Shown here piece after piece: positions 46,555-63,790 of a stretch of 64,000 nucleotides of DNA. This stretch comes from Promicromonospora umidemergens (GTDB lineage Bacteria; Actinomycetota; Actinomycetes; Actinomycetales; Cellulomonadaceae). The notes beneath the pieces were generated by a model, which searched no databases, was not told the origin of the DNA, and worked only from the letters and a program-made list of their open reading frames with translations. Location of the stretch: positions 650,827 through 714,826 of the forward strand of contig NZ_JAMTCT010000001.1 of the NCBI RefSeq assembly GCF_024171995.1, read 5' to 3'. The first letter of the stretch is position 1. Each line of letters starts with the position of its first letter. The translations under genes were made by a program, and so were the position numbers.

Positions 46555-46651
46555 GAACGCTCTCCTCTGGTCCTTCTGCGGGGCACCGGGACCGCCCCGG
46601 GGGTGATTCACCCTACCCCCGAGTTCGCATACGTGGACATGTTTCGACCCC

Positions 46652-46711
46652 TTGACCAGTGAGCGGGATCACGTCTATCGTCAGGCAAGTTCACATAGAC
46701 GAACACAGTTC
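46652..46711 (+). promoter_or_regulatory. kduI promoter with overlapping inverted GTTC/GAAC boxes
   Basis: TTGACC (46652-46657), 16 bases, TCTATC (46674-46679) form a candidate promoter. Just downstream GTTC-N8-GAAC (46689-46704) and GAAC-ACA-GTTC (46701-46711) overlap, and AGTTCRCA recurs three times across the intergenic region (46621, 46688, 46707). These are likely IclR binding sites that block transcription start. Confidence 0.6.
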
Positions 46712-46729
46712 ACAGACCGAGGGTGATTC

Positions 46730-48342: not shown

Positions 48343-48423
48343 CACCGTCCCTCTCACGACAGTCCCACCGCCGCGCTGCGGCACAGAACCACATGGCATC
48401 GAACGAAAATCGAGGAAACGACA

Positions 48424-49536
48424 ATGAAGTTCACCTCTCGACACTCTGCCGCTCGACACTCTGCCGCTCGAAACACGGCCGCCGTCATCGGCGTCGCCCT
48501 CGCGGCCGCAACACTCACGGGCTGCACCGAGACGGCCGCCGGGGGCGACGACGCCGCCGCGGCCGGCGCGTGCGAGCCAGCTGACGTCACCCTGGTGGGC
48601 CAGGTGCGCACCGAGTCCAACCCCTACGAGGCCTCGTGGCTGGACGGCGGCGACGCCTTCGCCGAGCAGGTCGGCCTCACCCAGGAGCGGCTCACCTACG
48701 ACAGTGACTCGACGCGTCAGCAGGAGCAGATCAGCCAGCTGCTCGCCGGCGACACCGAGTGCCTGGTCATGAACATCCTGCCCAACGGCGACTCCGACAC
48801 CCCGCCCATCGTGGAGGGCGCGGAGGCGGCGGGCGCCTACCTCGTCACTCAGTGGAACAAGCCGGCCGACCTCGACGTCACCGACTACGACTCCTGGCTG
48901 TCCCACATCACCTACGACGGCGTGGAGTCAGGCAAGCAGATCGGCGACGCGCTGGCCGAGGCGATCGGCGGCTCGGGCGGCGTCGTCGCCCTGCAGGGCG
49001 TCCTGGACACCGCCGCCGCCAAGGACCGCTTCGTCGGGCTCGAGGAGTCGCTGGCGGCCAACCCGGACGTCGAGCTGCTCGACGACCAGACCGCCAACTT
49101 CTCCCGCGCGGAGGCGCTGGAGGTGACCAAGACGCTCCTCACCAAGCACGGCGAGGACATCAAGGGCATCTGGGCTGCCAACGACGACATGGCGCTCGGT
49201 GCGCTCGAGGCGCTGCAGCAGGCGGGCCGCGACGACGTGGCGGTGGTCGGCATCGACGCAGTGCCCGACGCGCTCACCGCGATCCAGGACGGCACCATGA
49301 CGGCCACCGTCTCCAGCGACGGGCCCTGGCAGGGTGGCATCGGCCTGGCCATCGGCTACTGCGTGGCCACGGGGGAGCTCGCCGTCGAGGACATCGCCGA
49401 CGAGGACCGCGCCTGGTTCGCCGAGCAGTTCCTCATCGAGCAGGACAACGTCGCCGACTTCGTCTCCCCGGAGACCAGCGAGGCCGACTTCGCCTGCGAC
49501 AGCCTCTTCAGCCGTTCGCAGGGCTCGATGTCGTGA
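48424..49536 (+). CDS. Sugar ABC transporter substrate-binding lipoprotein (RbsB-like)
   Basis: 370 residues with GAGGAAA upstream. The lipoprotein signal ends in TLTGC; the coding start holds a short repeat giving SRHSAARHSAARNTAA. The mature protein is a type I (peripla_BP_4) sugar-binding fold: GGSGGVVALQGVLDTAAAKDRFVGLEESLAANPDVELLDDQTANFSRAEALEVTKTLL and IKGIWAANDDMALGALEALQQAGRDDVAVVGIDAVPDALTAI. It feeds the CUT2 importer encoded next. By operon context the ligand is probably a uronate or related sugar acid. Confidence 0.92.
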   Translation: MKFTSRHSAARHSAARNTAAVIGVALAAATLTGCTETAAGGDDAAAAGACEPADVTLVGQVRTESNPYEASWLDGGDAFAEQVGLTQERLTYDSDSTRQQEQISQLLAGDTECLVMNILPNGDSDTPPIVEGAEAAGAYLVTQWNKPADLDVTDYDSWLSHITYDGVESGKQIGDALAEAIGGSGGVVALQGVLDTAAAKDRFVGLEESLAANPDVELLDDQTANFSRAEALEVTKTLLTKHGEDIKGIWAANDDMALGALEALQQAGRDDVAVVGIDAVPDALTAIQDGTMTATVSSDGPWQGGIGLAIGYCVATGELAVEDIADEDRAWFAEQFLIEQDNVADFVSPETSEADFACDSLFSRSQGSMS

Positions 49537-49538
49537 CC

Positions 49539-50588
49539 ATGACGTCCCCCACCGAAGCCGGCAGAGGGGCCGGCAGAGCTACCGGCACAGAAGCAGACGG
49601 CGACGTCGTGCCTGCGCAGCGCCCCCGGCCTCGGCGGGGGGTGTCGCTGAGGGACGCCGGTCCGCCGATCGCCCTGGTCGTCATCTTCGGCGTCTTCGCG
49701 GTCCTCAGCCCCGACTTCCGGACGGTCTCGAACGTGCAGAACGTCCTGGACGCCGCGGCGGTCCTCGCGGTCGTGACCTGCGGCATCAGCTTCGTGCTGA
49801 TGATGGGGTCGATCGACCTGTCCTCCCCGGGGATCATGGGGGCGTCCGCGATCACGGTCGCCCTCCTGGTCGCCAACAACCGCAACGACAACGACCTCGG
49901 GGTCCTCGGAGTCGTCGTCGCCGTCCTCCTCGCGGCAGGGCTCGGCTGCCTGAGCGGGCTCGCCCTGGTCGTGCTGAAGGTGCCGTCGTTCATGACCACC
50001 CTCGGCATCTCCGCCGTGGGTCTTGGCGTGGCCACCCTCATGTTCGCGGGGGTGCAGCCCAACGTCTCGGACACGATGCTGCAGGGCTGGGCGGTCGAGC
50101 GGTTCCTCGGTCTGGCCTACCTGACCTGGATCGCGCTCGCCTGCGTGCTCGTGGGCTGGCTGGTGCAGCGATACTCGCGCCTGGGCCGGTACGCCTTCGC
50201 GATCGGCGGCGCCGAGGAGGTGCTGGCGCTCTCCGGGGTGAAGGTCGCGCCCTACAAGGTGGCGGTCTTCACGATGGCGGGTGCGTTCTACGGTCTCGCC
50301 GGCGTGATGGTCACCAGCCAGCTCGGCGCCGGCCTCGTCCAGGCGGGCAGGGGCTACGACTTCTCCGCCATCACGGCCGCCGTCGTCGGCGGCACGCTGC
50401 TCATCGGCGGCCGCGGCGGCATCCTCCACTCCACGGTCGGAGTCCTGCTCGTGACGGTCCTCACCAACGGCCTCGTCCAGGTCGGGGTGAGCCCCTACTG
50501 GCAGGGCGGGGTCCAGGGCCTCATCGTCGTCGCGGCCGTAGCGGCCGCCGTCATCCCACAGCGTCGTAGGAACCAGGTGACCAAATGA
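49539..50588 (+). CDS. Sugar ABC transporter permease (RbsC-like)
   Basis: 349 residues from ATG 49539; a GTG at 49533 overlapping the previous stop is also possible. CUT2 permease with about ten membrane helices and the motifs GIMGASAI, VPSFMTTLGISAVGLGVATL and YAFAIGGAEEVLALSGVKVAPYK plus GGTLLIGGRGGILHSTVGV. A ~45-residue charged N-terminal extension precedes the first helix. It overlaps the ATPase gene by 4 bp. Confidence 0.92.
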   Translation: MTSPTEAGRGAGRATGTEADGDVVPAQRPRPRRGVSLRDAGPPIALVVIFGVFAVLSPDFRTVSNVQNVLDAAAVLAVVTCGISFVLMMGSIDLSSPGIMGASAITVALLVANNRNDNDLGVLGVVVAVLLAAGLGCLSGLALVVLKVPSFMTTLGISAVGLGVATLMFAGVQPNVSDTMLQGWAVERFLGLAYLTWIALACVLVGWLVQRYSRLGRYAFAIGGAEEVLALSGVKVAPYKVAVFTMAGAFYGLAGVMVTSQLGAGLVQAGRGYDFSAITAAVVGGTLLIGGRGGILHSTVGVLLVTVLTNGLVQVGVSPYWQGGVQGLIVVAAVAAAVIPQRRRNQVTK

Positions 50589-52162
50589 CCACCAACCTGC
50601 AGGCCCAGCCCGAGGCACGGGTGCCAGCGCCCGTGCACGCCCTCGAGGTGCGCGGCCTGGTCAAGAGCTACCCGGGCGTCAAGGCGCTCGACGGCGTCGA
50701 CCTGGTCGTGCGCCAGCACGAGGTGCTGGGCCTGGCCGGCGAGAACGGCGCGGGCAAGTCCACGCTGCTCAAGGCCCTGGTCGGCCTGGTGCGGCCGGAC
50801 GGCGGCGAGATCTGGGTGCGCGGCGAGAAGGTGCGCCTGCGGAGCATCGTCGACGCCGCCGACCACGGCATCGGCATGGTGTTCCAGGAGCAGTCGCTCG
50901 TACCCAACCTGACCGCCGCCGAGAACATCGTGCTCGGCAGCGAGGGGCCGGGCGTGCGCCGCGGCGTCTACCGCTGGAACACGATGCGCAGGCTCGCGCA
51001 GGAGCAGCTCGACAAGATCGGGTCGCACATCGACCCGCTGGCTCGCACCGACACCCTGAGCTTCGCCGACCGGCAGATGGTCGAGATCGCCAAGGTGCTC
51101 CGGATCGAGGAGCGCACGTCCCACCCGCCGGTGATCATCCTCGACGAGCCGACGTCGGTGCTGGAGTCGAAGGAGATCGAGACCCTGTTCACCCAGGTGC
51201 GCCGGCTGCGCGAGTTCGCGTCCGTCGTCTTCGTCTCGCACCGGCTCGACGAGGTGCTCGACGTCTGCGACCGGGTCGCCGTGCTGCGTGGTGGCCGGTC
51301 GGTGGGCGAGGTGCCCGCGGCGGACGCCGCCCCGGCCGAGCTGCACCGCATGATGATCGGCTCGACCGGGGGTGACGACCACTACCACGGCGCGTCCGCC
51401 GCGGTGCGGTCAGACGAGCGGTCCGACGAGCCCCGCACTCCCCGTCTCGTGGTGCGTGGCCTGTCCGGCAAGACCTTCCGCGACGTCGACCTCGACGTTC
51501 ATGCGGGCGAGATAGTCGGCATCGTCGGCGTCCACGGCTCCGGCCGCGAGGACGTGTGCCGTGCGCTCTTCGGCGCCGAGCCCACCACGGCCGGCGAGGT
51601 GGTCCTCGACGGCGAGAGGCTCGACCTGTCCGGCACGCGCGCGGCGTGCGCCGCCGGCGTCGGCTACGTCCCGGCCGAGCGCAAGACCGAGGGCATGGTC
51701 GGCCCGATGTCGGTCGCCGACAACATGACGCTGACCAAGCAGCACTCCCGCTGCACCGGCCCGCTGGTGCGGCCGCGGAAGCAGGCGACGCTGGTGGACA
51801 GGTGGATCGAGCGGCTCTCGATCCGCACCCCGCACCGGGGCACCGCGATCCAGCGCCTGTCGGGCGGCAACCAGCAGAAGGTGGTCCTGGCGCGCTGGCT
51901 GGTGGCCGGCGACGTCCGGCTGCTGCTGCTCGACCACCCGACCCGCGGCCTCGACGTCGGGGCGCGCTCGGAGGTGTACCGCCTGATGCGCGAGCTCGCG
52001 GGCAGCGGCGTGGCCACGGTGCTGCTGGCCGACAGCCTCGAGGAGGCGATCGGCATGTCCGACCGGATCATCGTGATGAGCGACGGCCGGGCGACCACGG
52101 AGGTCGCCGCCCCAGCCGGGGGCAAGCCGACCCCGCTCGACCTCGTCAAGGAGATGGTCTGA
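50585..52162 (+). CDS. Sugar ABC transporter ATPase, two-domain (RbsA-like)
   Basis: 525 residues with two nucleotide-binding domains. Domain one: Walker A GENGAGKST, signature LSFADRQMVEIAKVL, Walker B VIILDEPTSVLE. Domain two (from about 285): degenerate Walker A GVHGSGRED, signature LSGGNQQKVVLARWL, Walker B LLLLDHPTRGLD, where His replaces the usual catalytic Glu. One active and one degenerate site is common in this CUT2 class. It powers uptake with the permeases on either side; ATGA overlap with the previous gene. Confidence 0.93.
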   Translation: MTTNLQAQPEARVPAPVHALEVRGLVKSYPGVKALDGVDLVVRQHEVLGLAGENGAGKSTLLKALVGLVRPDGGEIWVRGEKVRLRSIVDAADHGIGMVFQEQSLVPNLTAAENIVLGSEGPGVRRGVYRWNTMRRLAQEQLDKIGSHIDPLARTDTLSFADRQMVEIAKVLRIEERTSHPPVIILDEPTSVLESKEIETLFTQVRRLREFASVVFVSHRLDEVLDVCDRVAVLRGGRSVGEVPAADAAPAELHRMMIGSTGGDDHYHGASAAVRSDERSDEPRTPRLVVRGLSGKTFRDVDLDVHAGEIVGIVGVHGSGREDVCRALFGAEPTTAGEVVLDGERLDLSGTRAACAAGVGYVPAERKTEGMVGPMSVADNMTLTKQHSRCTGPLVRPRKQATLVDRWIERLSIRTPHRGTAIQRLSGGNQQKVVLARWLVAGDVRLLLLDHPTRGLDVGARSEVYRLMRELAGSGVATVLLADSLEEAIGMSDRIIVMSDGRATTEVAAPAGGKPTPLDLVKEMV

Positions 52163-52164
52163 CC

Positions 52165-53157
52165 ATGTCCACACCCGTCATCACCAAGCCGGCCGCCGAC
52201 GCCGTCGTCCCGGTCCGCCCGACGCTAGGTCAGCGCCTCACCTCGTTCATGCCGGTCATCGCGCTCGTCGTGCTCCTGGCGGCGCTGACCATCGCCGACC
52301 CCGGCTTCCTGACCCTGAACAGCCTCACGGCCGCGGTCCGCACGTCGGCGCCGCTCGTCGTGCTCGCGGCCGGTGCCACCCTGGTGGTCCTGTGCGGGGG
52401 CATCGACCTGTCCATCGCCGCGCTCTGCTCGCTCGCGACGGTCTTCTTCGCGCTGTGGCTGCCCGACCTCGGTGGCCTCACCACCGTCGCGGTCATCGCG
52501 GCCACCGCCGCGATCGGGGCGCTGCAGGGCCTCGCCCACGTGCTGCTCCGCATCCCGTCGTTCATCGTCACCCTCGGCGGTATGAGCATCTTCTCGGCGA
52601 TCGCGCTGGTGATCTCGGACGCCGGCCCGATCCGGGTGGTCGACCGCGACGTCACCAACTGGCTCACGCTCTACGTCGGCGGCGTGGTGCCGATGTCCTT
52701 CGTCGTCGCGCTGGTGGTCGTCGCGGTGATCTCCCTGGTCCTGCGGCTCACCCCGCTCGAGAGCTGGATCCGCGCCACCGGCTACTCCGAGTCGGCGGCC
52801 CGGCTGGCCGGCACGCCGGTCGACGTGGTCAAGGTCGCCGCGTTCACCGTCTCCGGCGCCTGTGCGGGCCTGGCCGCGCTCATGCTCGTCTCCCGGAACT
52901 TCAGCGGCAGCCCGTCCATGGCGGACAACCTTCTGCTGCCCGCGGTGGCGGCCATCGTGGTGGGCGGTACCGCCATCACCGGTGGTCACGGGTCGCTGTG
53001 GCGCAGCCTCGCCGGAGCGCTCGTGGTGACGCTGCTCCGTGTCGGGCTGCCGATCGTCGGGGTCCCGTCGGCCTACGAGCAGATCCTCTACGGTGCGATC
53101 ATCGTCGCCGCCGTCGCGCTCACCCTCGACCGATCGAAGGTGCTGATCATCAAGTAG
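52165..53157 (+). CDS. Sugar ABC transporter permease (RbsC-like), second copy
   Basis: 330 residues from ATG 52165, 2 bp after the ATPase stop. CUT2 permease: VVLCGGIDLSIAALCSLATV, RIPSFIVTLGGMSIFSAIAL, WIRATGYSESAARLAGTPVDVVKVAAFTVSG and VVGGTAITGGHGSLWRSL. With the permease before the ATPase it would give a heterodimeric pore, less usual than the RbsC homodimer. Confidence 0.92.
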   Translation: MSTPVITKPAADAVVPVRPTLGQRLTSFMPVIALVVLLAALTIADPGFLTLNSLTAAVRTSAPLVVLAAGATLVVLCGGIDLSIAALCSLATVFFALWLPDLGGLTTVAVIAATAAIGALQGLAHVLLRIPSFIVTLGGMSIFSAIALVISDAGPIRVVDRDVTNWLTLYVGGVVPMSFVVALVVVAVISLVLRLTPLESWIRATGYSESAARLAGTPVDVVKVAAFTVSGACAGLAALMLVSRNFSGSPSMADNLLLPAVAAIVVGGTAITGGHGSLWRSLAGALVVTLLRVGLPIVGVPSAYEQILYGAIIVAAVALTLDRSKVLIIK

Positions 53158-53251
53158 CCACGGCCCGACCGCGCCCCGACCCAGCCCAGCCAGCCCAGGC
53201 CCGTCCAGCCCCACGACCGACCCTGAACCCCGAAACCACGGAAGGCTCCCC

Positions 53252-54739
53252 ATGCCCGAGAGCTCCCACCTCCTGCCCGCCGTCGCCTCGTTCCTCTCCT
53301 CGCCCAAGCAGCTGCTGATCGACGGCGAGTGGGTGGACGCCAAGGACGGCCAGACCTTCGCGACCGTGAATCCGGCGACCGAGGAGGTCCTCGTCCAGGT
53401 CGCCCAGGCCTCCGCTGTCGACGCCGACCGTGCGGTCGTCGCCGCCCGTAACGCGTTCGAGACGGGCCCGTGGTCGAAGATGACGCCGCGCGACCGCTCG
53501 CACCTGCTGTGGCGCATCGGCGACCTCATCGACGAGCGCACCGAGGAGCTCGCGCAGCTCGAGTCCCTCGACAACGGAAAGAGCCTCGCGTCCGCCCGGG
53601 GCGACGTCGGCGTGGCCGCCGAGCTGTTCCGCTACTTCGCCGGCTGGGCCACCAAGATGGAGGGCACCACCATCCCGATGTCGGTGCCCGGCCGGGAGTT
53701 CCACGCCTACACGCGTCGCGAGGCGATCGGCGTCGTCGCGGGCATCGTGCCGTGGAACTTCCCCCTCACGATGGCCTGCTTCAAGATCGTCCCGTCGATC
53801 ACGGCGGGCAACACGATCGTGCTCAAGCCGGCCGAGCAGACCCCGCTCACCGCGCTCCGGCTCGGCGAGCTGCTGCTGGAGGCCGGCGTCCCGGCCGGCG
53901 TCGTCAACATCCTGCCCGGGTTCGGGGACGCGGGTGCGGCCCTGGTCGACCACCCGGGCGTCGACAAGGTCGCCTTCACCGGCAGCACCGAGGTCGGCAA
54001 GAAGATCGCCGCCGGCGCCTCGAAGAACCTCAAGAAGGTGTCGCTGGAGCTGGGCGGCAAGGCGCCCAACATCATCTTCGCCGACGCTGACCTCGACGCC
54101 GCGATCGCCGGCGCCGCCCTGGCCGGCTTCTTCAACGAGGGCCAGTGCTGCGTCAACGGCTCCCGCCTCTACGTCCAGCGCGAGGTGTTCGACCAGGTGG
54201 TCGAGGGCGTCGCCGCAGCGGCGAAGGCGATCAAGGTCGGCGACGCCTTCGACCCGGCGACCACCATGGGTCCGCTGGTCTCGCAGGAGCAGCACGAGAA
54301 GGTCATGAGCTACGTCCGCGGCGCGGTCGCCGACGGCGCCACGCTCGCAGCGGGCAGCCCCGACCCGGCCGCCGAGAACGGGTACTTCTTCGCGCCGACC
54401 CTGATCACCGGTGTCACCGAGCAGATGGCCGTCCAGACCGACGAGATCTTCGGGCCCGTCATCACCGCGATCCCCTTCGACACCGAGGACGAGGTCGTCG
54501 CGGCGGCCAACAACACGGTCTACGGCCTGGCGGCCGGCGTGTGGTCGCGCGACCTGAGCACGGCCCACCGGGTCGGGAGCAGGCTGCGCGCAGGCACGGT
54601 CTGGCTCAACACCTGGCACGCGGACGACGTCACCCTCCCGCGGGGCGGCTTCAAGCAGTCCGGCTGGGGTCGCGAGCTGGGGTCGTTCGGCCTGGACGAC
54701 TACACGGAGCTGAAGACCGTCATCGCAGAGCTGCGGTGA
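53252..54739 (+). CDS. NAD(P)-dependent aldehyde dehydrogenase
   Basis: 495 residues, typical ALDH class. Motifs: cofactor site GIVPWNFPLTMACFKIVPSITAGNTIVLKPAEQTP, FTGSTEVGKKI, catalytic Glu in LELGGKAPNI, nucleophile Cys300 in NEGQCCVNGSR, EIFGPVITAIPF and the C-terminal GGFKQSGWGRELG. It oxidises an aldehyde to a carboxylate; betaine-aldehyde/general aldehyde subfamily by eye. Last gene of the kdu-transporter operon (94 bp gap), so its substrate probably arises from the imported sugar. A hairpin follows. Confidence 0.92.
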   Translation: MPESSHLLPAVASFLSSPKQLLIDGEWVDAKDGQTFATVNPATEEVLVQVAQASAVDADRAVVAARNAFETGPWSKMTPRDRSHLLWRIGDLIDERTEELAQLESLDNGKSLASARGDVGVAAELFRYFAGWATKMEGTTIPMSVPGREFHAYTRREAIGVVAGIVPWNFPLTMACFKIVPSITAGNTIVLKPAEQTPLTALRLGELLLEAGVPAGVVNILPGFGDAGAALVDHPGVDKVAFTGSTEVGKKIAAGASKNLKKVSLELGGKAPNIIFADADLDAAIAGAALAGFFNEGQCCVNGSRLYVQREVFDQVVEGVAAAAKAIKVGDAFDPATTMGPLVSQEQHEKVMSYVRGAVADGATLAAGSPDPAAENGYFFAPTLITGVTEQMAVQTDEIFGPVITAIPFDTEDEVVAAANNTVYGLAAGVWSRDLSTAHRVGSRLRAGTVWLNTWHADDVTLPRGGFKQSGWGRELGSFGLDDYTELKTVIAELR

Positions 54740-54790
54740 GCGTGCGCCGCAGGCGCTGAGAGGAAACACAGGAAACCCAGAGTGAGGTCT

Positions 54791-54823
54791 GGGTGGCCGG
54801 CCCCGTGCGGGGACCGGCCACCC
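54791..54823 (+). terminator. Hairpin terminator of the kdu operon
   Basis: A stem of 10 + 4 bp with a single A bulge (GGGTGGCCGG/CCGGCCACCC outer arm, CCCC/GGGG inner arm) and a GTGC loop, 52 bp after the aldehyde dehydrogenase stop. Confidence 0.85.
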
Positions 54824-54869
54824 GGGCTGCCGTCATGTCCATGAACCACGTGCGAAAAGGGATTCAACG

Positions 54870-57800
54870 ATGAACCTGCTACGCAGACCTGACCGGCGGC
54901 GCCCCGCGCGTCGCCCCCGCCGAGCGCTCCCGCGCCTGGCGGCCATGCTGGCCGCCGTGGCGGTGGCCGTACCCCTCGGGAGCGGCGTCGCGCTCGCGGC
55001 ACCCACCACCGCGTCGCCCGCGCAGGCGGCGGCCGGATCCGTCGACGACGGCGAGCTGCGGGTCCTCCTGTTCTACAAGCCCAACTTCCACGCCTCCCAC
55101 GTCCAGGCCCGCCAGGCCGTGCGCGACCTGGCCACGGACCTGGGCGCCGAGTACTCGCAGCCGGTCGACATCCAGGAGACCGAGGACCCCGCCGCGTTCA
55201 CCACGGAAAACCTGGCGACCAAGGACGCCGTGGTCTTCGCCCAGACGGGAGGCGTGCTGTTCAACGTGGCCCAGCGGGCCGCGCTGGAGAGCTACATCCG
55301 TGGCGGCGGCGGGTACATGGGCCTGCACTACGCCGGCTGGTCGGTCGGCCAGAGCGAGCACGACGTGAACCCGTTCTACGCGCGGCTCGTCGGCGCGGCG
55401 TCGGAGGGCCACCCCGAGGACCCCGCGGTGCGCCCGGGCCGGGTCGTGGTCGAGGACAGCGAGCACCCGCTGACCCAGGGGCTGCCGGCCGAGTTCACCC
55501 GTAGCGACGAGTGGTACGACTGGCTGGTCAACCCGGCCCCGAACGTGCGCACCCTGCTCAATGCCGACGAGTCTTCGTACGGCGGGGGCAACAACGGCAC
55601 GAACCACCCGATCACCTGGTGCCAGGAGATCGACTCCGGCCGGTCCTGGTACTCGGGGATGGGTCACGAGGGCTCGGCGTACGCAGAGGCCCCGATCCGC
55701 ACGCAGATGAAGAACGGCCTGGCGTACTCCGCCGGTCTCCTCCCGGCCGACTGCTCGGCGCCGGACAAGGCCGAGCAGGGCTCCTGGAGCGGCGTCACGC
55801 CCTGGCCGCTGGTCCCGATCAACGCGGCGCTGACCTCCGACGGTCGCGTCCAGTCCTTCGGCAGCGTCTCCTCGGGCTGCACAGATGGCTCGCCGTACGA
55901 CTTCGGCGGCAACTCGTGCGTCACCCAGGGCGGCCAGATGGAGATCGACGTCTGGGATCCGGCCGAGCCACGCACGGTCGCCAACGTGAACGACAACGTC
56001 GTCACGAACTCGACGTACACCGACCTGTTCTGCTCGATGCAGGTCCAGATGCCGCACCGGCGGGCCACGATGACCGTCGGCGGCGACGACGGTCTGGGCG
56101 GCAACGCCCCCAACGACGCGTCGCTCGGCGTCACCAGCTACACGACGAACCAGGGCCTGCGCGACGAGGCCCCGATGAACTACCCGCGCTGGTACCCCAC
56201 GGGGACCACCCTTCCTGACGGCTCGGTCGTCGTGCAGGGCGGCAGCCTCAAGGGCGGCCCGGGTGGCCCCGGCGTCCTGACCCCGGAGATCTACACCCCC
56301 GACAAGGGCAGCTCCTGGGAGCTCCTGGAGGGCGCCACCAGCGCGGCGGCGTACGGCGACGGCGGCAACGGCAACGGGCCCGACGAGAACCGCTGGTGGT
56401 ACCCGCGCGCGTTCGTCGCGCCGGGCAACGGCAACGTCTTCAACATCACCGGCACGCAGATGTACGAGCTCGACCCCTCGGGCGACGGTGAGGTGATCCT
56501 CCGGGGCACCCTGCCGACGGACATCGCCGACCAGGACGAGCTCGGCAACCCGGTCGGTGCGACGTCCACCGCGACGATGTACCGCCCCGGCAAGATCCTG
56601 CAGGTCGGCGGCGGCTGGTGGGCGAACGGCGGTGGCCCGGACGGCGCTCGCGCCGGCTTCACCGTCGACATCACCGGCGGTACCGACGCGCCGGTGGTCG
56701 AGGCGACCGAGCCGATGGAGCACCAGCGGCACTGGGCCACCTCGACGGTGCTGCCCGACGGCAACGTGATCGTCACCGGTGGTTCCCGCGACAACAACGG
56801 CAACGGTGGCTACGTCACCACGGCCGAGATCTGGAACCCCGACACCGGCGAGTGGACGGAGGTGGAGGTGCCCTACGAGCACGCCCGCCTCTACCACTCG
56901 ACCGCGCTTCTCCTGCCCGACGGCCGCCTGATGGTGGGCGGTGGCGGTACGCCGGGCCCGCGCAACTACACGGACGTGGAGTTCTACTCCCCGGCGTACC
57001 TGTTCGACGGTGACGAGCCGGCGGTGCGTCCGGAGGTCACGGGCGTCCCGAAGGAGGTCGGCTACGACGGCACGTTCGACGTGCAGGCCGACGGCCCGGT
57101 CTCCCGGGTCACGCTGGTCCGCAACGGCTCGGTGACGCACGGGTTCAACAACGACCAGAACTTCCAGGACCTGGCGTTCTCCCAGACCGACGGCGCCCTG
57201 ACCGTCGAGACCCCTGTCGACGGCACGTACGCCCCGCCCGGTGCGTACATGCTCTTCGTCTTCGACGAGGACGGCACGCCGTCCGTGGCCGACATCGTCC
57301 AGATCGACCCGACGGTCGAGATGGACGCCCGGGCCCCGCACCTCGTCGACCAGCTCGAGTACCCCCGGATCCCGGCGGAGTGGCGCTCCGCCAACCCGCC
57401 GGCGGTCGTGGACGTCGAGCCGGGCAACGGCCGGATGTCCCCGTGGGAGGTCGACAGCGAGGTCCAGCTGGTCCGTGCCGCCGCATCCAGCCAGGGCGGC
57501 CTCGGCGCCACCGGCTACCACCTCGGCGTGGGCAGCGAGGGCAGCCTGACCCGCACGGTCGAGGGGCTGGACCCCGGCCGCGAGTACCGCATGTCGCTGC
57601 GCTACGCCCGCGACAGCCGGTCCGCGGGCACCGCACCCGGCACCGCCGACCTCTCGGTCGGTGACCTGTCGACGACCCTGACGGCAGACCCTGACGTGTC
57701 GTCGCAGGACAAGTTCGGCAAGTACGTCGGGACCTTCGTCGCGGGGGCACGGTCGGAGGACCTGACCATCGCCGCCGGAGACTCCGGTGCGGGCGTCATG

Positions 57801-60632
57801 GTCGACGACCTGGTGATCGTGGGCTCCGACCCTGGCGCCTCCGACGTCCCGGTGCACTACGAGCTCGACGAGGGCTCCGGTACCCGCGCCGCCAACACCG
57901 GCACGGACGCGTCCGTCGGCGCGGCCACGCTGACGGGGGCCACTGGGTGGAGCGAGAACGGCGTGCACGGCGACGCCGTCGACCTCGCCGGCGGGTCCAA
58001 CGCCAACGCGGTGGACCTGCCCGACAACCTGCTCCAGGGCGAGGAGGACTTCACCACCTCGTTCTGGGTGCGGCCGGACACCACGTCGGACTGGGCAGGT
58101 CTGTTCCACCTCGGGGACGGGCTCGAGGCGGCAGGCAGCTTCTTCCAGATCCAGCTGCAGACCAACGCAGACGGTGCCACCGGGCTCGCGGCGACGTTCA
58201 AGGCCAAGGGCGACGCCCTGGAGGAGCGGGTCTACGCCACGCCTACCCGTGACGTGACGGTCGACGAGTGGAACCACGTCGCGTTCACCCGCCAGGGTGC
58301 GACGGGCACGCTCTACCTCAACGGCGAGCCGATCGCGTCCCGCGACGACCTGACGATCGACATGACCGACGTCGGGCCGACGGCCAACAACTGGCTGGGG
58401 CGCAACGGCTTCCCCGACCCGGCCTACGACGGCCTCATGGACGACGTCCGCGTCTACTCCTCGACGCTCGGCGACGCCGACATCGCGGCCATGTACGCCG
58501 ACGGCACCGCGCTCGCCACGACCACCACGGTCACCGTCGAGCCGGCCTCACCGTCGCCGTTCGCCGAGCCGGTCGACGTGTCGGCCGTCATCGCGGCCGG
58601 TTCTGGTGCGGCTCCCTCGGGCGTCGCGGAGCTGTGGGTCGACGAGACCCGCATCGGCGGACAGGTCGACCTGGTCGACGGAGCGGTCCGGTTCACCGGC
58701 GTCGCCCTCTCGCCGGGAGAGCACGACGTCGAGGTCCGCTTCCTCGCCGACGAAGGGTGGCGAGACTCCGCGCAGACCGTGCAGCACACGGTCGAGCGGC
58801 CGCCGCCGGGCGAGGGGACACCGATCCACTACCCCTTCGACGAGGGCGAGGGCACGACGGCGGCCAACACCGGCCTGGACAGCTCGGTCGGGGCGGCGAC
58901 CCTCTCGGGGGCGGCCGGCTGGACCCCGGACGGCAAGTTCGGCGCGGGGATCGACCTGCCCGGTGGTGCGGCGTCGACGGGCAACCAGGTCGAGCTGCCC
59001 GACAACGTCGAGGCGGGGATGGAGGACCAGTTCAGCGTCTCCGTCTGGGCCCGCCCGGACGCGCTGCCCACCTGGGTCCCGCTGCTGCAGATCGGTAGCA
59101 GCACCGACACGTTCTTCCTGCTCCAGTCCAACACCCAGACCAGCGGCGCCACCGGCTTCGCTGCGACGTTCAAGGCGCCGGGCACCCCGGGCAGCGCCCA
59201 GGAGCGTCTGGTGCTGGGACAGGGCAACGACCTGCCGCTCGACGAGTGGACGCACGTGGTGTTCACCCAGAGCGGCTCGGTCGGGAAGATCTACTTCGAC
59301 GGCGAGCTCCAGGCCACGCGTGACGACTTCACCGTCGACATCGGTGACGTCGGAGTGGGCGGCCAGACGACGACCAACCTCCTCGGTGGCACCAGCTGGG
59401 GAGACGCCCGCTGGGACGGGCTGGTCGACGACTTCCGGATGTTCGGGTACGAGCTGACCGCCGAACAGGTGGGCCAGCTCCATGCCGGACCGGCGGCGAA
59501 CGTGGCGCCGGTGGGCGCCGCCGACGCCTACGGCACCGTCGAGGACGAGCCGCTGACCGTGGCGGCGCCGGGCCTCCTGGCCAACGACACCGACGTCGAC
59601 GGCGACGACCTGACGGCGACGGGGCTCACCCAGCCGGCCAACGGCGCCGTCGACCTGGCGGCGGACGGATCCTTCACCTACACGCCCGACGCCGGGTTCG
59701 CCGGCACGGACACCTTCACCTACCGGGCGTCCGACGGCACCGTGCAGTCTGCGGCGACGACGGTGACCATCACCGTGGAGGAGGGTGAGCAGCCGCCGGT
59801 CAACACCGCTCCGGAGGCGGGGCACGACGCCTACACCGCCGTGGGCGGGGAGCCGCTGATGGTCCCGGCGCCGGGAGTCCTGGCCAACGACACCGACGAG
59901 GACGGCAACGTGCTGACCGCCACCGGGGTCACCCAGCCGGCCAACGGCGAGGTCACCCTGGAGGCGGACGGGTCCTTCACCTACACCTCCGACGCCGGGT
60001 TCTCCGGCAAGGACGTCTTCACCTACCGGGCCGACGACGGGACGGACCGCTCCGCCGCGGCAAAGGTGACGATCACGGTGAAGTCACCCGCGGTGACGGC
60101 GGTGGTCGGGGTCGCCCTGCCCATCACGTACGGCACGGCGGGCACGGTCTCGGTGGCGGTGTCGCCGGACACGGCGACGGGTGAGGTCGAGCTCTTCGAC
60201 GGCGACACGAGCCTCGGGAAGGCCACGGTCGCGGACGGACGGGGAACCCTCGTCCTGCCGGCCGCCTCGCTCCGGCCGGCGGTGCACGACCTGACCCTCC
60301 GCTACGGGGGCGACGCCGACCACCGGGCCTCCTCGTCGAAGGTCAGGGTCGTGGTGGAGAAGGTGGTACCCACCATGGAGATCTCGGCGGAGAGGGCGGG
60401 CAAGCGGGCCGTCATCGACGTCTCGCTCACCGCGGAGAACGACGTCCCGGTCACCGGGGAGGTGCGGGTCGCGATCAAGGACGGCTCGACCCTGGTCGGG
60501 ACCCTCGAGAACGGTCGAGCCAGCTTCGAGGTGCCCCGGCCCAAGCAGAAGGAGCTGACGCTGACGGCGTCATATCTCGGCAGTGAGCTCGCCCTGGCGA
60601 GCTCGACCAGGGTGACGATCAGAGTGCGGTAG
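54870..60632 (+). CDS. Secreted ThuA + galactose-oxidase-like (AA5) copper radical oxidase, multidomain
   Basis: 1920 residues with a Sec signal peptide (about 1-50). Domains in order: ThuA-like (about 60-295, YMGLHYAGWS, SWYSGMGHEG); Kelch-type galactose/glyoxal oxidase with C-terminal DUF1929 (about 305-830); carbohydrate-binding-like (about 850-985); two LamG domains (about 995-1210 and 1318-1538); an Ig-like linker between them; two near-identical cadherin/VCBS-like repeats (about 1545-1640, 1647-1738); Ig-like repeats to the end. All AA5 copper/radical ligands are present: Cys388 (DLFCSMQ) and Tyr442 (RWYPT) for the thioether cofactor, axial Tyr675 and His676 (RLYHST), His757 (THGFNND). 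It should oxidise primary alcohols or aldehydes outside the cell, yielding H2O2. The substrate is unknown. Confidence 0.93.
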   Translation: MNLLRRPDRRRPARRPRRALPRLAAMLAAVAVAVPLGSGVALAAPTTASPAQAAAGSVDDGELRVLLFYKPNFHASHVQARQAVRDLATDLGAEYSQPVDIQETEDPAAFTTENLATKDAVVFAQTGGVLFNVAQRAALESYIRGGGGYMGLHYAGWSVGQSEHDVNPFYARLVGAASEGHPEDPAVRPGRVVVEDSEHPLTQGLPAEFTRSDEWYDWLVNPAPNVRTLLNADESSYGGGNNGTNHPITWCQEIDSGRSWYSGMGHEGSAYAEAPIRTQMKNGLAYSAGLLPADCSAPDKAEQGSWSGVTPWPLVPINAALTSDGRVQSFGSVSSGCTDGSPYDFGGNSCVTQGGQMEIDVWDPAEPRTVANVNDNVVTNSTYTDLFCSMQVQMPHRRATMTVGGDDGLGGNAPNDASLGVTSYTTNQGLRDEAPMNYPRWYPTGTTLPDGSVVVQGGSLKGGPGGPGVLTPEIYTPDKGSSWELLEGATSAAAYGDGGNGNGPDENRWWYPRAFVAPGNGNVFNITGTQMYELDPSGDGEVILRGTLPTDIADQDELGNPVGATSTATMYRPGKILQVGGGWWANGGGPDGARAGFTVDITGGTDAPVVEATEPMEHQRHWATSTVLPDGNVIVTGGSRDNNGNGGYVTTAEIWNPDTGEWTEVEVPYEHARLYHSTALLLPDGRLMVGGGGTPGPRNYTDVEFYSPAYLFDGDEPAVRPEVTGVPKEVGYDGTFDVQADGPVSRVTLVRNGSVTHGFNNDQNFQDLAFSQTDGALTVETPVDGTYAPPGAYMLFVFDEDGTPSVADIVQIDPTVEMDARAPHLVDQLEYPRIPAEWRSANPPAVVDVEPGNGRMSPWEVDSEVQLVRAAASSQGGLGATGYHLGVGSEGSLTRTVEGLDPGREYRMSLRYARDSRSAGTAPGTADLSVGDLSTTLTADPDVSSQDKFGKYVGTFVAGARSEDLTIAAGDSGAGVMVDDLVIVGSDPGASDVPVHYELDEGSGTRAANTGTDASVGAATLTGATGWSENGVHGDAVDLAGGSNANAVDLPDNLLQGEEDFTTSFWVRPDTTSDWAGLFHLGDGLEAAGSFFQIQLQTNADGATGLAATFKAKGDALEERVYATPTRDVTVDEWNHVAFTRQGATGTLYLNGEPIASRDDLTIDMTDVGPTANNWLGRNGFPDPAYDGLMDDVRVYSSTLGDADIAAMYADGTALATTTTVTVEPASPSPFAEPVDVSAVIAAGSGAAPSGVAELWVDETRIGGQVDLVDGAVRFTGVALSPGEHDVEVRFLADEGWRDSAQTVQHTVERPPPGEGTPIHYPFDEGEGTTAANTGLDSSVGAATLSGAAGWTPDGKFGAGIDLPGGAASTGNQVELPDNVEAGMEDQFSVSVWARPDALPTWVPLLQIGSSTDTFFLLQSNTQTSGATGFAATFKAPGTPGSAQERLVLGQGNDLPLDEWTHVVFTQSGSVGKIYFDGELQATRDDFTVDIGDVGVGGQTTTNLLGGTSWGDARWDGLVDDFRMFGYELTAEQVGQLHAGPAANVAPVGAADAYGTVEDEPLTVAAPGLLANDTDVDGDDLTATGLTQPANGAVDLAADGSFTYTPDAGFAGTDTFTYRASDGTVQSAATTVTITVEEGEQPPVNTAPEAGHDAYTAVGGEPLMVPAPGVLANDTDEDGNVLTATGVTQPANGEVTLEADGSFTYTSDAGFSGKDVFTYRADDGTDRSAAAKVTITVKSPAVTAVVGVALPITYGTAGTVSVAVSPDTATGEVELFDGDTSLGKATVADGRGTLVLPAASLRPAVHDLTLRYGGDADHRASSSKVRVVVEKVVPTMEISAERAGKRAVIDVSLTAENDVPVTGEVRVAIKDGSTLVGTLENGRASFEVPRPKQKELTLTASYLGSELALASSTRVTIRVR

Positions 60633-60639
60633 CAGGAAA

Positions 60640-60681
60640 GCGGCGTGGGCCCGGAGGACGGATCCTCCGGGCCCACGCCGC
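60640..60681 (+). terminator. 19-bp-stem terminator after the oxidase gene
   Basis: A perfect 19-bp GC-rich stem (60640-60658 with 60663-60681) and CGGA loop begin 7 bp after the oxidase stop. A T-rich stretch (TTGCTTCCCTCTTCCCTT) follows, consistent with intrinsic termination. Confidence 0.9.
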
Positions 60682-60697
60682 GTTGCTTCCCTCTTCC

Positions 60698-60759
60698 CTT
60701 CGAGGCCTAAGTTTCTTCGCTTTGAGCCCGCTCAAAGCGAAGAAACTTAGGCCTCGAAG
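60698..60759. repeat. 29-bp perfect inverted repeat with CCCG tetraloop
   Basis: Left arm 60698-60726 (begins CTTCGAGGCC, ends CGCTTTGAG) and right arm 60731-60759 are exact complements around CCCG; after one mismatch the pairing continues about four more bases. The arms are about 48% G+C, far below the surroundings. It sits between the first terminator and the 3' end of the convergent tautomerase gene. It may act as that gene's terminator or be a mobile or recombination relic. Confidence 0.9.
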
Positions 60760-60771
60760 AGAAGGCGGACG

Positions 60772-60996
60772 TCAGTCGTCGGCCAGGGCGGCCACCACGC
60801 CGGCGCGGCTCTCGTCCTCGCTGGCCAGCACGCCGCCGTTGGCGACGATGTCGGGGGTGATCTCGCTGAAGACCATGCGGACGTCCTGGCGCCGGGCGCC
60901 CAGGATCTCGACGGCGCTGTCGGCAACGGCCTTGGCGAAGTCGCGACGCTGCTCGACGGTGCGGCCGCGCAGCAGCTCGACGGTGATGTTGGGCAT
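60772..60996 (-). CDS. 4-oxalocrotonate tautomerase-family protein
   Basis: 74 residues from ATG 60996 with GGAGGGA upstream. Begins MPNITVELLRGRTVEQRRDFAKAVADSAVEIL, so Pro becomes the N-terminal catalytic base after Met removal; the Arg pair region (GARRQDVRMVFSEI) also fits. The family catalyses keto-enol tautomerisation and dehalogenation of small oxoacids. It is convergent with the oxidase gene; a role in sugar-acid breakdown is possible but not shown. Confidence 0.88.
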   Translation of the reverse strand: MPNITVELLRGRTVEQRRDFAKAVADSAVEILGARRQDVRMVFSEITPDIVANGGVLASEDESRAGVVAALADD

Positions 60997-61189
60997 GTCT
61001 TCCCTCCGGAGACGGCCGCTCCGCACACAGATACTCGTTCACAGAGGCGACCTTGATTCAGTGACATGAACCAAGGTACGCGTACAGCAGGGTGGCGTCC
61101 ATGACTTCAGCCGTTCAGTTCACACTCTTGACAGAGGTTCAGCGGGCTGATTTGGTGTGCGTGCCACCTCCAACGTCGGGGAGTCGTTC

Positions 61190-61915
61190 ATGAATCGCAG
61201 GACTGTCGTCCGTCGCGTCACCCTTTCCGGGATCGCCGCCGTCGGCCTCGTGGCCCTCGGGGCGACGTCGGCGATGGCCCACGTGACCATCACGCCGTCC
61301 ACCACCGCTGCGGGCGCCACGGCTGCCCTCCGCGTCGAGATCCCGCACGGGTGCGACGAGTCGGCGACGACCGCGATCTCCGTCCGGCTGCCCGAGGGGG
61401 TCGCGGACGTGACGGCCACCGGCACGGACCGCTGGGCGGTCGACCAGGCAGCGGACGGCCTGACCTGGACCACCGACGAACCGCTCCCGGACGGTGAGCA
61501 CGCCGAGGTCGAGCTCTCCGTACGCCTGCCCGACGACGTCGGTGCGACGCTCGTCTTCCCGGTCATCCAGGAGTGCGAGGACGGAGAGGTGGCCTGGACC
61601 GAGGTCGCCGAGCACGGAGCGGGCCACGACGCGCTCGACCGGCCGGCGCCGGTCGTCGTCGTGACCTCCGGTGGCGCCGAGGCGGCGGTTGCGACCGACG
61701 ATCCCGAGAAGGCGACGGCGACCGCCGATCCCGAGAAGTTGAGCGCGACCGCCGATCCAGAGGCGGCGACCGCGACCGCCGATCCAGAGGCGGCGACCGC
61801 GACCGCCGATCCCGAGGAGCCGAACCTCCTGGTCGCCTACGGTGCGGCCGGCGTCCTGGTCGCGGGCGGCCTGGCGGGCGGGGCGGTCCTGCACCGGCGC
61901 CGCCGACGCCAGTGA
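61190..61915 (+). CDS. YcnI-like copper-binding membrane-anchored protein (DUF1775)
   Basis: 241 residues from ATG 61190 with GGGGAG upstream. A Sec signal ends in TSAMA, leaving His31 as the mature N-terminus in HVTITPSTTAAGA, the residue that binds copper in YcnI. The DUF1775 domain follows (LRVEIPHGCDESATTAISVRLPEGV, TWTTDEPLPDGEHAEVELSVRLPDDVG, VIQECEDGEVAW). A repetitive linker of ATADPE units (about 175-215) leads to a C-terminal membrane helix and an Arg-rich tail. Its stop overlaps the CopC-CopD start. Confidence 0.92.
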   Translation: MNRRTVVRRVTLSGIAAVGLVALGATSAMAHVTITPSTTAAGATAALRVEIPHGCDESATTAISVRLPEGVADVTATGTDRWAVDQAADGLTWTTDEPLPDGEHAEVELSVRLPDDVGATLVFPVIQECEDGEVAWTEVAEHGAGHDALDRPAPVVVVTSGGAEAAVATDDPEKATATADPEKLSATADPEAATATADPEAATATADPEEPNLLVAYGAAGVLVAGGLAGGAVLHRRRRRQ

Positions 61916-63603
61916 CGCGCCTCGACCTGCGAAGTCACCGGAGCGCGGGGAAGCGCACCGGCAGCTGGCTCCTCCTGCTCGCCGTCGTCTGCGCGCTCCT
62001 CCTCGGGCCGGCGGGTAGCGCCGCGGCCCACGCGACCCTGCTGAGCACCGACCCGGCGGAAGGCGCGGTGCTTGACGCCGCCCCCGAGCGGGTCACGTTC
62101 ACCTTCAACGAGTCCGTGATCGGTGTCCCGACGGGCATCAGGGTGTTCGACGCGACCGGGGCCGAGGTGGCCTCATCGGCCACGGTCCGCGAGTCGCAGC
62201 TCCTCGTCGACCTCGACGAGGAGGTTCCGGACGGCACGCTCGTGGTCCTGTGGCGGCTCGTGTCCGAGGACGGGCACCCGATCGGCGGCTCGCTGAGCTT
62301 CGCCGTCGGCGCCCACAGCGAGCTGGTGGACGTACCGACGACCAGCGCGGACGCCGGCACCGACGCACCTCTCCCGCTCGGCCTGGTCCGCGGTCTGGGC
62401 TACGTGGGCCTCCTCGTGGCCGCCGGAGTGGCGGCCTTCTCGGTCCTGTTCCTGCCGCGGGGCCGCAGCGCCGACCGCTCGCGCGCCCGGCTCCGTCCGG
62501 TCGCCCGCGCGGCGGCCGGCGCAGCAGCTCTCGGCTGGTGGCTGGCCGTGCCGCTGGTCGCGCTCTACCAGCTCGGCCTGCCGGCCTCGGCGATCACCGA
62601 CGGCTCGACCTGGTCGTCGCTCGCGCCGGCGGAGTACGTCGTCCCCGCTGCCGTGGCCGTGGGGCTCGGGCTGGCCGTGGTGGCACTCCCGGCGGCCGCA
62701 GCCCCCGACCGGACGAGGGCTGCCCTGGTGCTGGCCGGCTGCGTCCTGGCGGTCGTCGCACCGGCGTTCACCGGCCACACCCGGGCCACGACGCCGGAGG
62801 CGCTGGTGATCGGTGCGGACGTGCTGCACCTGGCCGCGGGCTCCCTGTGGCTCGGCGGGCTGGTGGCCGTCGCCCTGGTGCTCGGGGACCTCGCGCGCGG
62901 CGACTCCGGCGCCGTCGTGCTCGGTCGCTTCTCGACCTGGGCCGCCGGACTGCTCGCGGTGCTCGTGGTCGCCGGGTCGTTCCTGGCCTGGCGGATCGCC
63001 GGAAGCTGGGCCGCGCTCCTCGACTCCGGCTACGGGGCCCTCCTCCTCGTCAAGGTCCTCGCCGCGCTGGTCGCGATCGCCCTCGCGGCGTGGAACCGGT
63101 TCTCCCTGCTGCCGCGCCTGCGGGGGGCCACCCGCAGGCGGGACCGTGGGTCCCCGGCCACGCTGGTGGTCCGTACGGCGCTCGCGGAGGCGGGCGTGCT
63201 GGTCGTCGTCCTGTTCATCACCGGCTTCCTGGTGGACCGGAGCCCCGAGACCGACGTGACCGCTTCCGCCGCGGAAGGGTCCGGGACGAGTGTTCAGGAG
63301 TCGGTGCGCCTGCACGGCGTCTCGGCGTGGGTCGCCCTGGACCCGCCGGCAGTCGGGCCGGCCACCCTCACCATCACGATGACCGACGCGGCAGGGGAGC
63401 CCGCCGAGGGCTACGAGGCCCCACGGCTCAGCCTGACGTCCGGAGAGGTGGACCTCGGCCAGGTGGCGGTCAGCTCGCTGGGTCCGGGTGTCTATGCCGG
63501 TGAAGTGGTGCTGCCGACCTCGGGGGAGTGGGACGTGCAGGTGTCGCTGCGCACGACGGAGTTCGACAACCCGGTGGGTACGGTGACGTTCCGCGTCCCC
63601 TGA
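61912..63603 (+). CDS. CopC-CopD fusion copper resistance/uptake protein (YcnJ-like)
   Basis: 563 residues from GTG 61912, overlapping the YcnI stop. A signal peptide releases a CopC domain starting at His (AHATLLSTDPAEGAVLDAAPERVTFTFNESV) with the second copper His in SEDGHPIGGSLSFAV. CopD membrane region, about eight helices: GLVRGLGYVGLLVAAGVAAFSVLF, FTGHTRATTPEALVIGADVLHLAAGSLWLGGLVAV with conserved His residues, LLLVKVLAALVAIALAAWNRF. A C-terminal FixH/YtkA-like beta domain follows (about 460-563). In Bacillus, YcnJ imports copper; the same is likely here. Confidence 0.93.
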   Translation: MTRLDLRSHRSAGKRTGSWLLLLAVVCALLLGPAGSAAAHATLLSTDPAEGAVLDAAPERVTFTFNESVIGVPTGIRVFDATGAEVASSATVRESQLLVDLDEEVPDGTLVVLWRLVSEDGHPIGGSLSFAVGAHSELVDVPTTSADAGTDAPLPLGLVRGLGYVGLLVAAGVAAFSVLFLPRGRSADRSRARLRPVARAAAGAAALGWWLAVPLVALYQLGLPASAITDGSTWSSLAPAEYVVPAAVAVGLGLAVVALPAAAAPDRTRAALVLAGCVLAVVAPAFTGHTRATTPEALVIGADVLHLAAGSLWLGGLVAVALVLGDLARGDSGAVVLGRFSTWAAGLLAVLVVAGSFLAWRIAGSWAALLDSGYGALLLVKVLAALVAIALAAWNRFSLLPRLRGATRRRDRGSPATLVVRTALAEAGVLVVVLFITGFLVDRSPETDVTASAAEGSGTSVQESVRLHGVSAWVALDPPAVGPATLTITMTDAAGEPAEGYEAPRLSLTSGEVDLGQVAVSSLGPGVYAGEVVLPTSGEWDVQVSLRTTEFDNPVGTVTFRVP

Positions 63604-63790
63604 CGGCCCCGGCCTGCGCCTCGCCGCACCGCGCCGACGACGTCTCGGGGCGGAGCGGCAGCGGCGCCGTCGGGTGCGTTGCGCGGAAAGCGCATAACGT
63701 GTTGATGGCTCGAGCGCCTGGCTTCGCCACCGGGGTACGCCGTCCGGTTGGCTCGGCGCTGCGCTCCATCAACGGGGACGGGAGTCACTC

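Follow-up and report, generated by a model that had tools for sequence, protein, structure and literature searches.

Promicromonospora umidemergens carries a gene for a secreted AA5-type copper radical oxidase a few kilobases upstream, on the same strand, of two genes for copper-handling proteins, ycnI and a copC-copD fusion (copCD). The question raised by this locus is whether the two copper genes supply the oxidase with its metal. The stretch analysed, called the window below, comprises 64,000 nucleotides (contig NZ_JAMTCT010000001.1, positions 650,827 to 714,826) and coordinates are counted from its first letter. An earlier sequence-only reading of the window had proposed that the oxidase and the copper pair form a dedicated metallation module. 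As an association this proposal stands and has to be enlarged. The oxidase and the pair belong to a block of about 18 kb (approximately 45,750-63,606) encoding an IclR-type regulator, KduI, KduD, a ribose-type ABC importer, an aldehyde dehydrogenase, the AA5 oxidase, a tautomerase, YcnI and CopCD, and this block is a transferable catabolic module. The pair is, however, not obligatory, being absent from the modules of four out of four Jiangella genomes and of Asanoa and not beside the AA5 gene in Paractinoplanes. Given the IclR, KduI, KduD, ABC importer and dehydrogenase neighbours, the unit is larger than an oxidase plus a copper pair and the oxidase would be its secreted step. With modest confidence the block is read here as encoding a substrate-induced oxidative sugar pathway which has its own copper supply and forms part of the transferable module. 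The identity of the repressor, the substrate, the direction of the pathway and the metallation of the oxidase by the copper pair are what we infer from the arrangement described below.

Boundaries of the gene block

Alignment of 49 kb of the P. umidemergens genome to 14 other Promicromonosporaceae genomes showed that the block is the only DNA common to all of them and that it ends at the copCD stop codon. The left edge falls at 45745-45785 in all 14 genomes and the right edge at 63591-63618 in 12 of them; in the other two the alignment runs off the contig (G007) or is interrupted by N runs (G009). An apparent break of copCD in G009 was discarded as a scaffold artefact since N runs lie at the breaks. 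Scattered pieces of the flanks recur in 6 of the 14 genomes (G001, G002, G003, G009, G012 and G063), and one module, that of G076, has no tautomerase gene.

The DNA outside the block was compared pairwise among 11 genomes of the same genus, a pair being scored when at least 1 kb of the 8-kb flanks was in common. On the left 3 of 55 pairs had module flanks in common and on the right 2 of 45, the figures over all 15 genomes being 4 of 105 and 4 of 91. At a control locus, the ordinary ycnI gene of the 11 same-genus genomes, all 55 pairs had both flanks in common. The module flanks thus differ while the block is intact, indicating that the module is found at many different places and stays whole.

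A neighbourhood arising by chance, and then kept by shared descent and by transfer of a compact island, would require no functional link between its genes. The genomes are indeed related, transfer is likely and the counts are not independent; for the relatedness no probability is attached to any co-occurrence count given here. Nevertheless, the boundaries lie exactly at gene edges within different flanks, the copper pair takes three relative positions, a control word is shared within the module and a distantly related cluster combines AA5, CopCD and a dehydrogenase (see below), so that an origin by chance appears very improbable.

Just outside the left edge, at 45488-45733, inverted and direct copies of a word of approximately 20-30 bp (CAACTTGCGGTTCGGC) are present, which could be a repetitive extragenic palindromic-like element or a recombination site. 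A mobile-element boundary was considered and not adopted: the window contains no tRNA according to ARAGORN, which gave a single tRNA-Gly-like hit among 36 loci (L023), probably spurious because it lies inside the oxidase gene, and no dedicated integrase search was made.

Distribution of the oxidase and the copper genes

Of 149 genomes searched, 21 contained an AA5 match and 15, including P. umidemergens itself, have orthologues at 87% identity or more. The YcnI and the CopC-CopD fusion placed downstream by the sequence-only reading were confirmed by Pfam, and a divergent DUF1775 gene is found on the same strand within a few kb downstream of the oxidase in 15 of the 15 orthologue genomes. Two genomes of the genus without the oxidase (G004 and G008) contain one ycnI each, of the ordinary type. 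Among the six genomes with weaker AA5 matches, ycnI is on other contigs in five (G097, G103, G115, G136 and G146) and no ycnI match was obtained in the sixth, G033.

The sampling was widened by a scan of species genomes (the best 80 of 582 relatives) and by a class draw of 394 genomes, copies found twice being counted once. At least 20 further AA5-ThuA genomes were found, namely 8 Nocardioides, 7 Micromonosporaceae, 4 Jiangella and one member of another family, G537. The sugar operon adjoins the oxidase in all of these except Paractinoplanes, with the first genes beyond the DNA read in some Nocardioides loci; in Paractinoplanes the operon is on another contig than the oxidase, together with IclR, tautomerase, YcnI and CopCD. 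Among the matches listed, 27 of 33 evaluable genomes have CopCD linked to the oxidase module: 14/14 Promicromonosporaceae (G007 was not evaluable and G009 is in pieces), 7/7 Nocardioides, 5/7 Micromonosporaceae, 1/1 for G537 and 0/4 Jiangella. The eighth Nocardioides has its oxidase locus ending at a contig edge and a tautomerase-YcnI-CopCD set at another contig end. YcnI is linked in 24 of 34 genomes (Promicromonosporaceae 15/15, Nocardioides 5/7, Micromonosporaceae 4/7, G537 0/1, Jiangella 0/4). The recurrence of ycnI and copCD near AA5-ThuA homologues, proposed earlier as a check, therefore extends beyond one genus.

The pair lies to the right of AA5 in the Promicromonosporaceae and Nocardioides and to the left of IclR in the Micromonosporaceae, and in G537 CopCD directly follows the dehydrogenase, a third type of position. 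The pair had appeared to be missing in Micromonosporaceae when a 10-kb flank ended just short of it; whole-genome searches and longer flanks place it left of IclR.

A Nitriliruptorales metagenome-assembled genome (L092:6014-12217) contains a distant AA5 gene (37-38% identity) with CopC-CopD and an aldehyde dehydrogenase divergently adjoining, which is possibly an independent case. Further open reading frames downstream of AA5 in Catellatospora coxensis (L076:14810-18227) resemble, by eye, what we take to be a P-type ATPase with a heavy-metal domain and a CopZ-like protein. Several genomes carry a separate copper cluster that is unlinked to AA5 (L208, L216, L217, L218 and L219), in which about 2.4 kb separate a ycnI-copC pair from a second, divergent DUF1775 gene or domain.

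A CopC-CopD type specific to the module

In the tree built from 47 CopC-CopD proteins, a branch with a support of 100 separates the 27 copies linked to the module or its operon from all the others. The 20 proteins outside this clade were other copies from the module genomes, copies from relatives and 7 from class-draw genomes without a full-length AA5-ThuA protein. A smaller tree, without G007, G009 and G011, agreed with a support of 97. Both trees were of a quick type without bootstrap, and the linked copies in the larger one were identified by their coordinates.

The class draw gave a second view of this specificity, with up to two candidates scored per genome in the first pass and up to three in the CopCD count. 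Some ThuA-AA5 match was present in 89 of the 394 genomes and a full-length one in 9, and the operon marker, the binding protein, was found in all 9 and in one more genome, G439. CopCD matches at 1e-60 occurred in 17 genomes. Five of these matches were at 52% identity or more, all among the 9 genomes, and the remaining 12, one of them from Jiangella, were at 37-47%; 7 of the 12 were placed on the tree, all outside the linked clade. Taking 52% as the dividing line, which was set after the hits were seen though it is borne out by the 47-protein tree, the linked type is present in 5 of the 9 full-length AA5-ThuA genomes vs 0 of the 385 others. G439 has the operon and the tautomerase, and neither an oxidase, nor a copper pair, nor GTTCACA was found in the 20 kb read.

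A control word shared by the sugar operon and the copper genes

The control regions before kduI and before ycnI were aligned and their words counted. No 7-mer other than GTTCACA was conserved in both (0.016 would be expected by a rough estimate that ignores base composition). Before kduI there are 28 copies in 3214 bp, spread over 15 of 15 genomes, and before ycnI 14 copies in 2733 bp, spread over 13 of 14, G076 being excluded for want of a tautomerase gene. There are 0 copies in the 2568 bp before the oxidase, 3 in the 259,797 bp forming the rest of the module in the 15 genomes and 13 in 456,030 bp of flanks, and none of 11 ordinary ycnI promoters contains one. The window holds five copies, four of them in the two control regions, and GTTCACA abuts TTGACA upstream of ycnI. 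The 16-base box GTTCACATAGACGAAC before kduI is matched exactly just once across the 6.6-Mb genome and twice with 2 mismatches (L308, G000:C14:938-953; L309, G000:C21:98271-98286).

Beyond the family, 4 of 8 Nocardioides ycnI regions keep GTTCACA exactly and 3 have an altered version of it; in N. currus, the remaining one, the tautomerase gene is turned round and the region aligned was the tautomerase gene itself. The six Micromonosporaceae with a copper gene at this place show, as read by eye, GTTCAC[A/G], three bases and [A/G]TGAAC. The shared word points to co-regulation of the sugar operon and ycnI-copCD. GTTCACA may be bound by the IclR protein, and the copper pair is probably under the regulator of the sugar-acid pathway. 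A scan for promoter and terminator consensus sequences yielded a single terminator-like site, less than shuffled sequences give, and no promoter.

Several observations weigh against a copper supply belonging to the oxidase pathway. No pair was found near the module in any of the four Jiangella genomes, where matches elsewhere are absent, partial or outside the linked clade (G160, 41%), and none was found in Asanoa, where a whole-genome CopD search gave its only match on a longer contig. With Paractinoplanes, in which the pair is not beside AA5, these cases show that the oxidase can persist without the pair. YcnI is not present in the modules of 2 of 7 Nocardioides, Virgisporangium and G537. 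Among 59 distant AA5 loci, some of them on short contigs, CopCD was found in 1 and YcnI in 0. In six genomes (G052, G082, G149, G154, G161 and G163) no YcnI other than that of the module was found. A regulator specific for copper was not recognised among the module genes, and the total of five GTTCACA copies is not above that of shuffled windows (3.0, sd 1.65), only their placement and conservation being striking. The late choice of the 52% line belongs here as well.

Some of these points suit a simpler explanation, that the copper pair performs general copper uptake for the cell and merely rides with the module, the oxidase being supplied like any cuproenzyme. A lone YcnI could serve the general copper needs of the six genomes, the modules of Jiangella and Asanoa manage without the pair, and YcnJ of Bacillus subtilis supports respiratory oxidases (PMC13344008). 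Three results are difficult to accommodate in such a scheme: the genus possesses a second ycnI elsewhere, with conserved flanks and promoters without GTTCACA, the linked CopCD type was not found in the 385 genomes without a full-length AA5-ThuA protein, and the pair changes position while the linkage stays. General uptake is accordingly considered unlikely, and a supply for the pathway remains the preferred reading.

Active site of the oxidase

The claim that the secreted oxidase has all its copper and radical ligands was borne out at five positions by alignment to galactose oxidases in the PDB. Cys388, Tyr442, Tyr675, His676 and His757 align with the Cys-Tyr, Tyr-His and His set of residues which we take to be the galactose oxidase ligands, giving the thioether Cys and Tyr, the axial Tyr and the two His. 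Among 35 module oxidases, that of the window included, Cys388 and Tyr442 are kept in 35 and Tyr675, His676 and His757 in 34, the sole miss being a truncated sequence. A Pfam search placed a ThuA domain at residues 64-286 and a galactose-oxidase early-set domain at 720-812, with Kelch and glyoxal-oxidase matches between them; two LamG_3 domains and Big/cadherin-like repeats are located elsewhere in the protein. From these features the protein is assigned to the AA5 copper radical oxidases, and oxidation of an alcohol or aldehyde with release of H2O2 is predicted.

A fungal enzyme is among the nearest known counterparts. The best PDB matches of the oxidase core are chains named galactose oxidase (E 7e-42, over nearly the whole core length), and the catalytic ligands of fungal galactose 6-oxidase (AA5_2) are the same across a 513-residue core. 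The window oxidase differs in having Leu, in a pairwise alignment, at the position of the active-site Trp, presumably Trp290, and in its other fused domains and operon setting, and its activity is a predicted one. The GlxA model NF052501 gave 132 bits over residues 575-812 vs a cut-off of 800, so that the protein is not classed as GlxA. A conserved twin-arginine translocation signal was considered and rejected, RRxZZ being found in just 14 of 35 module oxidases.

In Paractinoplanes aksuensis (L071:6821-12748) a ThuA-LamG stretch without AA5 directly precedes the ThuA-AA5 oxidase. A frame change splits the orthologue in G001 (L034), and the ATPase and dehydrogenase frames are shifted in G082 (L032); sequencing error or decay could account for either.

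Metal sites of YcnI and CopCD

CopCD has both the histidine brace of CopC and the CopD histidines of a YcnJ-type importer. His42, Asp122 and His124 of CopC are kept in 26 of 26 module copies (numbering from 61906) and His291 and His308 of CopD in 25 of 26. A C-terminal YtkA domain in the CopC-CopD reading frame is a sub-threshold match (22.4 bits, cut-off 25.9). The B. subtilis system depends on the first histidine of CopC and on a histidine of CopD (PMC13344008).

The module YcnI is a DUF1775 protein with His31, His53, Cys55, Cys129 and Trp136 invariant in 11 copies. His31 follows an Ala-x-Ala site at which cleavage is predicted, which would make it the N-terminal residue of the mature protein. 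The Glu of the monohistidine brace (Glu50 of B. subtilis) is not present: the module YcnI has Gly at this place, in an invariant His-Gly-Cys motif, vs the Glu-type copies. DUF1775 proteins with the His and Trp and without the Glu form a recognised minority class (PMC8424229). In the module YcnI a site with two histidines may be completed by His53.

A purely protective role at the cell surface was also considered. AA5 enzymes produce H2O2, and the names CopC and CopD derive from resistance operons. YcnI and CopC could therefore bind loose copper, keeping the peroxide made by the oxidase from reacting with it, and have no part in supply; a sequestration of Cu(II) from YcnJ by YcnI has been proposed (PMC12362106). 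The conserved CopD histidines fit import instead, and none of the module proteins searched was identified as a catalase or peroxidase. We regard protection as distinctly improbable, though more likely than a chance neighbourhood.

Proposed working of the module

In the reading preferred here, a supply of copper for the sugar pathway, an IclR-type repressor would hold both control regions through the GTTCACA boxes until a sugar-acid inducer appears and two gene sets are switched on. The first set would comprise kduI-kduD, the ABC importer, the aldehyde dehydrogenase and the secreted AA5 oxidase, and the second ycnI-copCD and the tautomerase gene. YcnI and CopC would act as surface traps for Cu(II), which CopD would import or hand on; with this supply the oxidase could form its Cys-Tyr radical site. 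Acting outside the cell, the enzyme would convert a primary alcohol of a sugar or glycan to the aldehyde, which would be imported and oxidised by the dehydrogenase to a uronate, and KduI and KduD would then yield 2-keto-3-deoxygluconate. A 2-keto-3-deoxygluconate (KDG) kinase and a 2-keto-3-deoxy-6-phosphogluconate aldolase are not in the module of the window. Between IclR and KduI the G537 module encodes an Eda aldolase above its cut-off (166/156) and a PfkB kinase that falls short of those for KDG kinase, so that the end point of the route is probably 2-keto-3-deoxygluconate and its phosphate.

Galactose oxidase yields the 6-aldehyde and galacturonate, with an unsaturated aldehyde arising by base-catalysed chemical elimination (PMC3388858), and KduI of Escherichia coli also facilitates the breakdown of galacturonate and glucuronate (PMC3578941). 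These products and this role of KduI suggest the proposed order of oxidase, importer, dehydrogenase, KduI and KduD. The elimination is chemical, at raised temperature and alkaline pH, and not enzymatic (PMC3388858). A direct feed into KduI by elimination is thus not assured, which adds to the points against the pathway as drawn.

A bolder proposal is put forward only tentatively, as it seems rather doubtful taken as a whole. The module would be an oxidative substitute for polysaccharide lyases, its copper import would be induced by a carbon source and not by copper, and the package would be spreading between actinobacterial orders. AA5 would oxidise galactose-type glycans to a C6 aldehyde, from which elimination, the dehydrogenase or both would produce an (unsaturated) uronate to be used by KduI and KduD, and the sugar regulator would also order copper import. 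No lyase or hydrolase was recognised among the module proteins.

Comparison with known systems

Oxidases with dedicated copper handling are already known, and what is new is the placement of one inside a transferable sugar-acid pathway. Streptomyces GlxA is also a bacterial AA5 oxidase, and when copper is limiting it depends on dedicated extracytoplasmic copper proteins to mature (PMC4736821). The glxA cluster of Frankia adjoins a sco homologue, and in certain Burkholderia genes of galactose-oxidase type co-occur with sco (PMC4736821). The window oxidase differs from GlxA in being a ThuA-AA5-LamG-Big protein encoded in a catabolic operon, with YcnI and CopCD as the copper proteins and not Sco, ECuC and DtpA.

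The copper pair itself resembles ycnKJI of B. subtilis, where a DUF1775 protein also adjoins a CopC-CopD fusion (YcnJ being a CopC-CopD-YtkA importer) and where Cu(II) exchange between YcnI and YcnJ has been shown (PMC12362106; PMC13344008). It differs in the lack of the YcnI Glu ligand, in that no YcnK repressor was recognised and in sharing an IclR-type control word with a sugar operon. KduI and KduD, both above their curated cut-offs, resemble the enterobacterial KdgR-kduID system, and KdgR is among the best matches of the IclR regulator (NCBIfam BhcR 125/350 bits and KdgR 117/275 bits, neither reaching the curated cut-off); in place of a lyase, however, the module has a secreted oxidase and a dehydrogenase. 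A search of open-licence titles and abstract openings, with most subscription papers outside it, found no report of AA5 with ycnI or copCD, of a ThuA-AA5 fusion or of AA5 with KduI.

How bacteria load secreted enzymes with copper is poorly known. If the present reading is correct, copper import is built into, and controlled by, a carbon-use pathway, and the module would be a compact system for tests of metallation by gene removal. It would also give a bacterial AA5 oxidase a physiological role beyond Streptomyces morphogenesis and provide a reason for KduI and KduD without an adjoining lyase.

Features of the block

The features of the block are collected in Table 1. The tautomerase gene and two hairpins that the sequence-only reading placed between the oxidase and the copper genes are present. 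The strand of the tautomerase gene, omitted there, is the minus strand, which makes it convergent with the oxidase gene and divergent from ycnI. The copCD gene has a probable GTG start overlapping the ycnI stop codon.

Table 1. Genes, control regions and hairpins of the module (window coordinates).
Feature	Position	Strand	Remarks
IclR-family regulator, KdgR/BhcR-like; left module edge	45751..46611	-	Pfam IclR_C and HTH_IclR
Control region IclR to kduI	46623..46729	+	GTTCGCA 46623, TTGACC 46652, box GTTCACATAGACGAAC 46689-46704, GTTCACA 46708
KduI, 5-keto-4-deoxyuronate isomerase	46730..47548	+	NCBIfam PRK00924 363.6 bits, cut-off 250
KduD, 2-dehydro-3-deoxy-D-gluconate 5-dehydrogenase	47566..48342	+	TIGR01832 340.3 bits, cut-off 338.85
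Sugar-binding protein, ribose/galactofuranose-type ABC importer	48424..49536	+	Peripla_BP_4; RbsB best, below cut-off
ABC permease 1	49539..50588	+	BPD_transp_2
Sugar-type ABC ATPase, two domains	50585..52162	+	ABC_tran, two stretches
ABC permease 2	52168..53157	+	Ribose-permease-like, below cut-off
Aldehyde dehydrogenase	53252..54739	+	Aldedh 585 bits
ThuA-AA5-LamG-Big copper radical oxidase, secreted	54870..60632	+	1920 amino acids
Hairpin 1, between convergent genes	60634..60687		Folding vs shuffles, z -7.7
Hairpin 2, uninterrupted stem core of ~29 bp	60688..60769		Folding vs shuffles, z -11.2
4-Oxalocrotonate-tautomerase-like protein, 74 amino acids	60772..60996	-	PF01361; NCBIfam below cut-offs
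Control region tautomerase to ycnI	61037..61133	+	GTTCACA 61037 and 61118, TTGACA 61128
YcnI, DUF1775, 'HGC' type, C-terminal membrane anchor	61190..61915	+	PF07987 106 bits, cut-off 25
CopC-CopD fusion; right module edge	61912..63603	+	Pfam CopC and CopD above cut-off

Hairpin 2 has a long, near-perfect stem, and its exact 18-base core was found in only 2 of 309 loci compared (L026 and L037), both from G009. Outside the module, a gene for a 656-residue LamG_3 protein (41821-43791, minus strand) adjoins one for a SUKH-1 protein (40110-41693, minus strand).

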